Origin: Paludibacter sp.
Lineage (GTDB): Bacteria; Bacteroidota; Bacteroidia; Bacteroidales; Paludibacteraceae
DNA: 38,240 nucleotides
Assembly (NCBI GenBank): GCA_013426815.1
Contig: JACDZH010000007.1
Coordinates: forward strand, 1-38,240
Direction: 5' to 3'
Position numbers and translations under genes: made by a program. Position 1 is the stretch's first letter; every line of letters starts with the position of its first letter. Shown one piece after another: positions 6,831 to 32,301 of this stretch. Under the pieces are notes generated by a model, which was given only the letters and a program-made list of their open reading frames with translations, did not search any database and was not told where the DNA came from.

Positions 6831-7586
6831 TTAATCTTTAAATTTAGCACTTAAAAATTCACGGTTCAAGCGGGCAATATGCGAAATAGAAATGGCTTTG
6901 GGGCATTCGGCTTCGCAAGCTCCGGTATTGGTACAATTACCGAAACCAAGTTCATCCATTTTGGCTACCATGGCTTTAGCACGATGTGCTGCTTCCACTT
7001 TTCCCTGTGGTAGTAATGCCAGTTGACTTACTTTAGCTGCTACAAACAACATGGCTGAACCGTTTTTACAGGTAGCGGCACAGGCTCCACAACCAATGCA
7101 CGAAGCTGCGTCCATTGCCTCGTCGGCAAAAACTTTCGAAATCGGAATTGCATTTCCATCAGGTACGCCACCGGTATTGACAGATACATAACCTCCGGCT
7201 TGAATTATTTTATCAAAAGCGCCACGATCGACCATCAAATCTTTGATTACAGGAAATGCCGCCGAACGCCAAGGCTCAATTGTAATGGTTTGACCGTTGT
7301 GAAAACGACGAATATGAAGCTGGCAAGTTGTGGTTTCACCATCAAGTCCGTGCGGATGACCATTAATAAACAAACTACACATTCCACAAATTCCTTCGCG
7401 GCAATCATGATCAAATGCAATTGGTTCTTTGCGTTCTTTAACTAATTTTTCATTCAGAATGTCGAGCATTTCGAGGAATGAATTATCGGTCGATACATTG
7501 TCCAATTTATAAGTTTCGAATTCGCCTTTTACTTTAGGACCGGCTTGACGCCAAATTTTTAACGTTAAATTTATATTTTTTTCCAT
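6831..7586 (-). CDS. frdB: Succinate dehydrogenase/fumarate reductase iron-sulfur subunit
   Basis: [19 protein letters not shown] (2Fe-2S) and [19 protein letters not shown] / [16 protein letters not shown] cysteine clusters. Confidence 0.93.
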
Positions 7587-7594
7587 GGGAATAT

Positions 7595-8109
7595 AGTTAC
7601 GAGTTACAAGTTACGAGTTACAAGTTTAAAGAACCGGAAGCTGGTAGTGTAACAGTTATTAGTAATTTATTTATTATATTTCTGTACGAACTTTAATAGA
7701 TTTAATATGCGAAGAAGTCATTTTTATTATTTCGAAAACAAGAATCTGAATTTGTTCAGATTTTTCTTTTTCTAAAAAATCTAACTCTTGGGAAATAATA
7801 ATTTGTGTTTCTAGTTCAGAGGCTGAGCCCAAGCAAATATAAAGAAAATGAACCAATTCCTTATCGGAATTTCGGCCACAACCTTCAGCAATATTTGAAG
7901 GTATTGAAACTGCAGCTCTTCTCATTTGCGATACCAATCCAAATTGTTCGTTGGTCGGAAACGAACTAGTGATTTCATAGATTAATTTCACTAAATCAAT
8001 TCCCTTTTGCCAAACTTTTAGATCTTTATGACTGGTCATATGCTAATCATTTATCTACTTTTAAATGAAAACCTCTTTTCTTGTAACTAGTAACTTGTAA
8101 CTAGTTACT
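7595..8109. mobile_element. TIR-bounded four-helix-bundle (S23/IVP-like) element
   Basis: Left end 7595-7624 AGTTACGAGTTACAAGTTACGAGTTACAAG. Right end 8080-8109, reverse-complemented, is AGTAACTAGTTACAAGTTACTAGTTACAAG (27/30 identical). The pair encloses a single four-helix-bundle ORF. Confidence 0.7.
7674..8039 (-). CDS. Four helix bundle protein (23S rRNA intervening-sequence/S23 family)
   Basis: MTSHKDLKVWQKGIDLVKLIYEIT...FPTNEQFGLVSQMRRAAVSIPSNIAEGCGRNSDKELVHFLYICLGSASELETQIIIS is the characteristic family signature. Confidence 0.9.
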   Translation of the reverse strand: MTSHKDLKVWQKGIDLVKLIYEITSSFPTNEQFGLVSQMRRAAVSIPSNIAEGCGRNSDKELVHFLYICLGSASELETQIIISQELDFLEKEKSEQIQILVFEIIKMTSSHIKSIKVRTEI

Positions 8110-8112
8110 ATC

Positions 8113-10089
8113 TTACGCCTTATAATTCCGTTGTTGACGATGAACAAATTCATAATCGAGTGCTTCTTTCAGCAATTCGGGTTCTTCACCTTCGCCATTG
8201 AATTTCCAACATGAAGCAAATGAGAATTCTTCGTCGTTACGAAGTGCTTCACCATCCGGTGTTTGGTATTCTTCGCGAAAGTGACCGCCACACGATTCTT
8301 CGCGCATCAAAGCGTCACGGGCAATGAGTTCGCCGATTTCGATAAAATCGGCCATACGTAAGGCTTTTTCGAGTTCCACATTCAAATCGGTACTTACACC
8401 CGGAACATACACTTTTGTCCAGAATTCATGACGAACTGCTTTTATTTTTTCCAATGCTGTTTCCAAACCTGCTTTGTTACGTCCCATACCTACAAAATCC
8501 CACATGATTAAACCCAATTCACGATGAATAGAATCGACAGATGTATCACCCTGAATTTTCATGATTTTTTCGATTTTGGCGCGAATCCCTTTTTCGGCTT
8601 GGTCAAACTCTGGTAAATCGGTACTTAAACGTGGTACTTGAATCTGATCGGCTAAATAATTCTGAATGGTATATGGTAATACAAAATATCCATCGGCCAA
8701 ACCCTGCATCAAAGCCGAAGCACCCAAACGGTTTGCACCATGATCGGAAAAATTGGCTTCACCAATACAGAATAAACCTTTGACCGAAGTTTGTAATTCG
8801 TAATCCACCCAAACGCCACCCATTGTGTAGTGAATGGCCGGATAAATCATCATAGGCATTTTATATGGATTTTCGTCAACAATTTTTTCATACATTTGGA
8901 AAAGGTTTCCGTAACGGGCACGGATAGTATTTTCACCTAAACGCTCGATGGACGAAGAAAAATCAAGATAAACAGCCAAACCGGTATTACCAACTCCATA
9001 ACCTGCATCGCAACGTTCTTTGGCAGCACGTGAAGCCACATCGCGGGGCACTAAGTTACCAAAAGCAGGATAACGGCGTTCGAGGTAATAATCGCGTTCA
9101 TCTTCTTTCAAATCGGTTGCTTTTTTCTTTCCGGCACGGATAGCTTCAGCATCCTCTTTCAGTTTTGGCACCCAAATACGACCATCGTTACGCAATGATT
9201 CCGACATCAAAGTCAGTTTCGATTGAGTTTCGCCGTGAACCGGAATACAGGTCGGGTGAATTTGACAATAGGCAGGATTTGAAATATATGCTCCTTTTTT
9301 ATACATTTGAACCGCAGCCGATGCATTTGAAGTCATGGCATTGGTCGAAAGGAAAAAAGTATTTCCGTAACCACCGCTTCCAACTACCACCGCATGCGCA
9401 AAAAATCTTTCAATTTTGCCCGAAACCAAATTACGGGCAATAATACCACGGGCACGACCATCGATAATTACAACATCCAACATTTCGTAACGCGAAAACA
9501 ATTTGACAGCTCCTTTGCCTACCTGACGGCTTAAAGCCGAATATGCACCAAGTAATAATTGTTGTCCGGTTTGTCCTTTTGCATAAAAAGTACGCGAAAC
9601 CTGAGCTCCACCAAATGAACGGTTGTCGAGCAAGCCGCCATATTCACGGGCAAATGGAACACCTTGTGCCACACATTGGTCGATAATTCCGTTGGACACT
9701 TCGGCCAAACGATATACATTGGCTTCGCGGGCGCGATAATCGCCACCTTTGATAGTATCGTAGAAAAGACGGTAAACCGAGTCGCCATCGTTTTGATAAT
9801 TTTTTGCAGCATTGATACCACCTTGTGCAGCAATAGAATGCGCACGACGGGGAGAATCCTGAATACAAAAGTTTAATACATTGAAACCCAATTCGGCCAT
9901 CGACGCAGCAGCCGAAGAACCGGCAAGTCCAGTACCGACAACGATAATATCCAATCGACGTTTATTGGATGGATTTACTAATTTTTGATGGGCTTTGTAA
10001 TTACTCCATTTTTCAGCTAAAACACCCTCCGGAATTCTAGCATCTATTTTTGTTGCTTCTACCGCAGTAGATTCTTGTTTCTTTGCCAT
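8113..10089 (-). CDS. frdA: Succinate dehydrogenase/fumarate reductase flavoprotein subunit
   Basis: [66 protein letters not shown]. Confidence 0.95.
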
Positions 10090-10118: not shown

Positions 10119-10790
10119 TTAGGTTGCACACCCAAATAAGTAATAAACAGGGATAGACATAAACATCAAAATCACTATGGATGAAATTATATTTGCAAAC
10201 ATTTTTACACGTGGCAACCAAGTTCTATTATTCAAACCCAATGTATGCAATGCACTCCAAACTCCATGTGTAATGTGAAACCACAGTGCCGACAGCCATA
10301 CAATGTAAAGCACGCAATATGCCCAATTACTAAATAAATCTTCTACATAAGCAGCACCATTGGCTGGGTCAAATTGTCCGGTATGAATACCACTAATTTC
10401 TGCAAATTGCATTTTGTACCAAAAGTTAAACATGTGTAAGCCAAGGAAACCGAGCACAATAATTCCCAACACCAACATGTTTTGAGAAGCCCAATCCACA
10501 CTTTTTTGATTTTTAGTTACAGAGTACTTCTGTTGGCCTCGTGCCCTCATATTCTGAAAAGTAAGATACAGAGCATACAAAATGTGAAAAACAAAACCAG
10601 CTGCCAGCATACTTGTACCTACTAAAGCATACCAATTTGCGCCTAGAAATGCACAGATAGCATTATATCCTTCGGGCGAAATAATCACCACAATATTCAT
10701 AATGCTGTGAAACAATAAAAATATCACGAGAAACACCCCCGTGATACTCATAATAAGCTTTCGCCCAATTGAGGAGTCAAGTAACCACAT
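10119..10790 (-). CDS. frdC: Succinate dehydrogenase/fumarate reductase cytochrome b subunit
   Basis: MWLLDSSIGRKLIMSITGVFLVIFLLFHSIMN, multiple TM helices with conserved His; directly upstream of frdA. Confidence 0.9.
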   Translation of the reverse strand: MWLLDSSIGRKLIMSITGVFLVIFLLFHSIMNIVVIISPEGYNAICAFLGANWYALVGTSMLAAGFVFHILYALYLTFQNMRARGQQKYSVTKNQKSVDWASQNMLVLGIIVLGFLGLHMFNFWYKMQFAEISGIHTGQFDPANGAAYVEDLFSNWAYCVLYIVWLSALWFHITHGVWSALHTLGLNNRTWLPRVKMFANIISSIVILMFMSIPVYYLFGCAT

Positions 10791-17140: not shown

Positions 17141-17397
17141 TCTTTATTAGACTGTTTTTTGAGGCACAAAGATACACCAAGTAATGCATAATTCATAATT
17201 CAAAGTTATTAATGCTTTTAAATATTTTATTTTAAGCTAGTCTAAAAATGGGCATTAAGTCACGATTTAAAATTAATTTCACATTATTTAACTATGGTTT
17301 CACAAATCACATAAGCCTAGAAATGAATATATTACCAAGCATACTGTTAATTTTAACTTGAAATTCGAAATATATCTGAAAAATATTGATATAAATG

Positions 17398-18733: not shown

Positions 18734-19072
18734 TTTTGAAAATAAATAATATGTAATAATTAATGATAAGTATTTGCTCGAAATTACTTTATACCTTATA
18801 GATAGATTATGTTATTGTTTATCAGACAGTAACATTAAATAATATTATAAATGAAAGTGCTTATCCACTTCGGTCAAGTGTTTTTGCTAATATACAATAT
18901 TTCAAGCATTTATATAAATGGCGAAATCGAAGCTAATTCATTGACATAATGGCTGTTGTGCTTTTTAATTTTTATCGAAATGGATAAGCAGTTAAATTAA
19001 TTAGTACTGAATTCTAATGTTTTTGATTAATATTTAGAAACACACTTGTAACTAGTAACTAAACTCTTGGAA

Positions 19073-32200: not shown

Positions 32201-32301
32201 GTATCTTCAGTTTAATTTTCAGATTTAAAAATGGTTACCTCATTACTTGTTAACATATCAATTTGTAAACCAGTAACTTGTAACTCTAACGAATAATATT
32301 T

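Follow-up and report, generated by a model that had tools for sequence, protein, structure and literature searches.

Intervening Sequences, Heptamer Repeats and a Cassette in the frd Operon

To our knowledge, IVP/S23 proteins and heptameric DNA repeats have both been known for decades, with a function or origin lacking for either. The subject here is a small cassette in the fumarate reductase operon of a Paludibacter sp. (assembly GCA_013426815.1), in which an IVP gene lies between inverted arrays of a 7-nt repeat; it was found in positions 1 to 38,240 of contig JACDZH010000007.1, the 38,240-nt stretch that was analysed and is called the window below. Among the closest described systems is the intervening sequence (IVS) of 23S rRNA, and that of Coxiella burnetii has an IVP open reading frame (ORF), described as decaying, and a 28-bp terminal stem that is cut by RNase III, its origin being called unclear (PMC4990558). 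The frd cassette resembles a 23S IVS in that a single IVP/S23 ORF occupies an insert of ~0.4-0.5 kb whose ends are inverted repeats of ~28-35 nt, able to form an RNA stem, but it sits at a junction of an mRNA operon, its arms are tandem heptamers whose unit varies by locus, and its IVP, in contrast to the decaying ORF of Coxiella, is under purifying selection. Because its flanks are frdA and frdB, it lacks the rRNA-gene location required of a 23S IVS and is not one by membership, although by analogy of architecture it may work like a 23S IVS that has moved to an mRNA. The idea that other IVP loci are rRNA insertions was rejected, there being no rRNA match in L001 or 19 further loci (20 tested), and a catalytic group I or group II intron was rejected as well, L001 having no match in an Rfam gathering search.

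Cyanobacterial STRR are heptanucleotide tandem repeats. Heptamer repeats have been described also in Xanthomonas and Nostoc. A paper on TAACTGA repeats of Beggiatoaceae, Cyanobacteria and Bacteroidetes offers no mechanism and leaves IVP/S23 unmentioned (PMC4679880). As the complement of an AGTTATC unit, TAACTGA has the form of the cassette arms, and STRR and TAACTGA repeats share with those arms the 7-nt unit, an intergenic position close to start and stop codons, and the phyla in which they occur; but they are direct repeats to which neither a protein nor a mechanism has been linked, whereas here matched inverted arrays enclose IVP genes. REPIN/RAYT systems and miniature inverted-repeat transposable elements are likewise small, intergenic, palindromic, multicopy and in some cases gene-less, but the inner gene here is IVP and not a Y1 or DDE transposase, and the repeats are tandem heptamers; the window's genome has four Y1_Tnp matches. 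IVP falls in the same broader fold family as Avd of the diversity-generating retroelements, from which the cassette differs in that the window's genome is without a reverse transcriptase (RT) and RT is unassociated with IVP copy number. No link of IVP genes to heptamer repeats or to operon junctions was found in searches of an open-access library. The finding is real, and it belongs to a large pattern that is apparently undescribed. We put at about 0.5 the probability that it represents a widespread, IVS-like, putatively promoterless, operon-dwelling and partly mobile cassette, in which inverted arrays of a usually 7-nt repeat enclose an IVP (S23) gene.

An IVP Gene between Inverted Heptamer Arms

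The 526 nt that separate frdA from frdB hold a single ORF (P0001, Table 1), whose 121-aa product matches the profiles PF05635 (E 1.4e-39) and TIGR02436, in agreement with the S23/IVP family named in a first-pass annotation of the window. Avd families are matched more weakly (phrog_3206, E 1.1e-10; PF22296, E 7.8e-6), and the relatives of the protein in the PDB are 2gsc and 2rld, with five chains each. Membership of a defence system was rejected, the match to BrxA being weak only (E 0.0016). The first-pass annotation had described a segment from 7595 to 8109, beginning 3 nt after the frdA stop and ending 8 nt before the frdB ATG, with 30-nt inverted ends identical at 27 of 30 positions; the distances were exact, and a direct count gave the same identity. 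It was right about the inverted ends but understated the case, missing that the arms are built of heptamers, that their unit varies between loci, and that there is a link to heptamer repeats genome-wide. With a repeat finder, the arms extend to 35 nt at 89% and consist of four to five repeats of the heptamer AGTTACN. In the window's genome, AGTTACNAGTTAC occurs 26 times and the reversed pattern once, and since, in addition, matching arms at other IVP loci are far above cross-paired controls, the arms are not a product of chance.

In that comparison, the 300-bp flank upstream of each IVP gene was aligned to the downstream flank of equal length, taken as its reverse complement, a score of at least 30 being counted as matching arms, and for the control the upstream and downstream flanks were cross-paired between different loci. 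The 89 loci came from public genomes, mostly of Bacteroidota, and from copies in the window's genome, and matching inverted arms were present at 69% of them vs 4.7% of the cross-pairings, with the caution that loci of one genus or one junction are non-independent. Among cyanobacterial loci (n = 28), 79% had matching arms vs 7% when cross-paired. The autocorrelation of the IVP flanks peaked at 7, 14 and 21 nt, the median arm length was 35 nt, and the left arm held more G than C in 52 of 54 loci, whatever the repeat unit. There are 14 IVP matches in the window's genome, several with stop codons, and nearly all of the copies lie between mirrored short tandem repeats whose unit differs per locus; near-identical copies, wanted for defining the ends, were not found in that genome, the similarity being remote only. 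The architecture of gene and inverted arms is general, extending over Bacteroidota, Cyanobacteria and other phyla, and the possibility raised in the first-pass annotation, that such ends might accompany the gene nowhere else, is contradicted by the inverted arms at most other IVP loci. A separate observation concerns L097, on a contig labelled Rickettsiales, where the IVP gene and its flanks are near-identical to those of Marinoscillum L084; the contig is probably misbinned.

Operon Junctions and Their History

Of 154 classified loci, 140 had the IVP gene running the same way as the genes on either side, and 3 had it antisense to both; these counts rest on simple ORF calls, and a few loci are counted in both sets. 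In 12 clusters of IVP loci, one junction was occupied across genera or families. Flanking genes, both there and in the window's genome, were named by reading the protein sequences and not from database calls; so read, the shared junctions are frdA-frdB, metH-metF, groES-groEL, rfbB-rfbA, rfbB-rfbC and fadB-fadA, together with those between an ABC ATPase and a methyltransferase, acyl-CoA carboxylase subunits, an ABC permease and its ATPase, and a thiolase and an acyl-CoA dehydrogenase, and those of the window's genome are RND adaptor/pump, cas1-cas2, hsdS-hsdM, leuA-leuC, ABC subunits and etfA/acyl-CoA dehydrogenase. Cassettes are sense-oriented at junctions of co-directional genes, and gene and arms travel and persist together. 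Two own-genome loci may be described individually: at L004 (C473:23500-23796) the cassette apparently lies between cas1 and cas2, and at L005 a cassette with an in-frame TAG lies, likewise apparently, between hsdS and hsdM, the names in both cases being those read from the flanks.

The frd junction has the best-documented history. That frdC, frdA and frdB are normally adjacent, as the first-pass annotation held, agrees with the cytochrome b558 subunit found upstream of frdA and with the empty frdA-frdB gaps of other Bacteroidales, in most of which the gap is 0-74 nt; a search for frdA-frdB pairs without the insert found empty junctions within the genus as well. Among 30 loci of the genus, the junction was either empty or held an AGTTACG-type cassette, an AGTAAAC-type cassette with an IVP just 57-63% identical, or an unrelated palindrome of ~120 nt, and where relatives carry the gene at this junction they have arms too. 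Pieces of arm left in three short frd gaps of the genus look like deletion scars, judging by their sequence. L153, which is filled, and L380, which is empty, form a clean sister pair, and the block by which they differ lies between the frdA stop and a point 10 nt ahead of the frdB ATG. On the frdB tree, many forks of which are weakly supported, the cassette was gained or lost at least 12 times. The IVP of the window is nearer to a Dysgonomonas IVP from the frdA-frdB junction than to the second type of its own genus, while frdB shows the opposite kinship, and descent with the host alone therefore does not account for the cassette. Mucilaginibacter has cassettes at two different junctions whose IVP are 70-80% identical and which share AGTATCA arms; when all pairs of loci from unlike junctions are compared, the arms are more alike where the IVP are more alike (rho 0.17, permutation p 0.002). 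As long as a cassette stays at its junction, both its arms and its protein are conserved; gain or loss is repeated, and related cassettes are found in different junctions. Also at the frdA-frdB junction, in several genomes of the genus, a different, gene-less palindrome of 115-152 nt (AAGCCCC...GGGGGCTT) was seen at L357, L359, L360, L374, L378 and L385.

Mechanism and Alternatives

An operon-dwelling, partly mobile cassette of this kind would be expressed through read-through of the host operon, and a putative binding of the heptamer arms by an IVP oligomer, as DNA or RNA, would do more for keeping or, rarely, moving the cassette than for the frd operon. By analogy with the 23S rRNA IVS, the arms in the frd transcript might pair into a stem open to cutting by RNase III, so that the insertion would be tolerated. 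Several points weigh against the cassette reading: the need for read-through transcription could by itself give the sense orientation, and long persistence at one junction also fits a benefit to the host; no movement step was observed, and a nuclease, a transposase and an RT are all lacking among what the cassette encodes; the window's genome has no RVT_1 (PF00078) match; the arms of L046 and L127 now pair poorly; and heptamer arrays are few in some IVP-rich genomes (40 kb sampled). RT-driven movement was rejected, given the lack of RVT_1 in the window's genome and of an association with RT over 99 genomes (odds ratio 1.6, p 0.38).

The arms are ~90% alike between orthologues, with an unalignable spacer, and within a junction they match their own partner better than the partners of orthologues in 46 of 55 cases (Wilcoxon p 1.7e-8); therefore, the two arms change together. 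An intervening sequence at the RNA level was one of two possibilities put forward in the first-pass annotation. In an unlikely alternative of this kind, the paired arms would be under selection as an RNA stem for RNase III to cut, like the stem in 23S rRNA, and the insertion would itself have taken place at the RNA level and hence in sense only. The sense-only orientation is as expected, there is the precedent of the Coxiella 23S IVS with its RNase III-cut 28-bp terminal stem (PMC4990558), and in the predicted fold of the transcript the arms form the outermost stem (z -5.2). Among the arm mismatches, however, G-U-compatible changes are not in excess (140 vs 116 and 39 vs 37), and for this reason selection on an RNA stem is not claimed, despite the outer-stem fold, and RNA-pairing selection on the arms was rejected. 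The poorly pairing arms of L046 and L127 tell against the alternative as well, as does RT presence, which does not track IVP copy number. The cassette may be excised at the RNA level.

We regard as rather unlikely a regulator useful to the host, in which IVP and the hairpin tune the ratio or the stability of the two halves of an operon. Its appeal lies in junctions within operons of coupled proteins (frdA-frdB, groES-groEL, rfbB-rfbA, metH-metF), in the conservation of the arms, and in the strong purifying selection on IVP, with a dN/dS of 0.10-0.17 between the window's IVP and its orthologues at the frdA-frdB junction and of 0.05-0.17 for orthologues sharing a junction, where dS is unsaturated. 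Yet the cassette is missing at the junction in most relatives and its losses are frequent, a single protein family recurs in unrelated operons, and several IVP copies in the window's genome have stop codons.

The other suggestion of the first-pass annotation, an unrecognised small mobile element, is supported by the polymorphic frd junction with its scars, the changes on the tree, the two Mucilaginibacter junctions, and the terminal repeats and duplications of a cyanobacterium (G244). In G244, IVP elements (L272, L389-L407) have terminal inverted repeats, CTGAYGTTACGCA, and of 11 complete elements that end in this way, including two or three that lack IVP, 9 have target duplications (7 bp, once 8 bp); no transposase ORF is evident inside the ends. 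Two IVP copies in G312 share different ends, GGCTCTTC, and in both genomes the heptamer arrays lie inside the outer ends. Some of the G244 IVP elements hold nested inserts, themselves with heptamer arrays. Such ends and duplications would suit an ordinary non-autonomous DNA transposon, with IVP and heptamers as cargo carried between ends that a trans-acting transposase cuts, but we find this improbable: at the frd junction no outer terminal repeats or target duplication are recognisable in the pair L153/L380, the arms come within a few nt of both the stop codon and the start codon, and the two cyanobacterial families differ in their ends yet both have heptamer arms.

Heptamer Arrays beyond the Cassettes

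The repeat census covered 800 kb of a complete genome of the same genus (G114) and samples of other genomes. In the 800 kb, 47 arrays had a period of 7, vs 0-15 at other periods, 14 excepted, and two IVP-less genomes had one period-7 array in 300 kb and none in 100 kb. At 40 kb per genome, ten IVP-bearing genomes had 15 period-7 arrays (all from four genomes) vs one in ten IVP-less genomes. Over 99 Bacteroidales genomes, uncorrected for kinship, and with counts in which the control pattern is also a heptamer pattern and some matches come from IVP-borne arms, matches to RGTTANNRGTTANNRGTTA correlated with IVP copy number (rho 0.58, p 3.5e-10), and presence of RGTTANNRGTTANNRGTTA was associated with presence of IVP (odds ratio 10, p 4e-5). 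Genomes rich in IVP genes are also rich in heptamer arrays. The gene-less arrays are intergenic in 58 of 60 cases, with the G-rich strand away from the nearest gene in a ratio of 31:14 (association p 0.017).

A passive origin, with the arrays as products of polymerase slippage (slippage at a 7-nt footprint has been proposed for heptamer repeats generally, according to the passages citing it in PMC4692102 and PMC4679880) and IVP as an ordinary operon gene among them, is very improbable and is disfavoured by the cross-paired control, as it would not yield matched inverted arms around one gene family across phyla and explains neither the G-rich polarity (52/54) nor the concerted turnover of the arms. 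A bolder and tentative proposal, which we hold to be doubtful, is that IVP is the agent behind bacterial heptamer arrays, an oligomeric nucleic-acid binder that would recognise 7-nt repeats and build or spread them with host enzymes. If that were true, cassettes and gene-less arrays would make up one class of mobile element without a transposase or RT of its own, resident in operon junctions and rRNA genes. As for the IVS-like cassette itself, the consistent link of IVP to heptamers across phyla, sense-only in operons, turns two orphan observations into one testable system, and the 23S rRNA IVS may accordingly be one special case of a general transcript-inhabiting element; the link also points to a common source of genes inserted in essential operons and annotated as their ordinary members.

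Coordinates and Further Heptamer Repeats

The gene order on the minus strand of the window is cytochrome b subunit, frdA, IVP gene, frdB (Table 1).

Table 1. Parts of the frdA-frdB cassette and its neighbouring genes, in window positions.
Feature	Positions	Strand	Remarks
Whole IVP cassette	7590..8114	-	Sense with operon, between frdA and frdB; junction empty in related genomes
5' arm (transcript sense)	8080..8114	-	G-rich AGTTACN heptamer array, directly after frdA stop; 35 nt, 89% complementary to other arm
3' arm (transcript sense)	7590..7624	-	C-rich complement array CTTGTAACTCGTAACT, stops just short of frdB ATG
IVP/S23 four-helix-bundle gene (121 aa, P0001)	7674..8039	-	PF05635, TIGR02436
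frdB, downstream operon gene	6831..7586	-	NF005746; context, outside cassette
frdA, upstream operon gene	8113..10089	-	NF005749; context, outside cassette
Cytochrome b558 subunit	10119-10790		Next gene upstream of frdA

Elsewhere in the window, at 17179-17209, 19048-19060 and 32273-32285, there are heptamer-type repeats without IVP (a CATAATT-type array and two AGTTACNAGTTAC pairs), intergenic or beside ORF ends. In G114, heptamer arrays lie around and between apparent tRNA-Ile and tRNA-Ala genes in two inverted copies (C1:193700-194120 and 1438150-1438530), probably in the spacers of rRNA operons.
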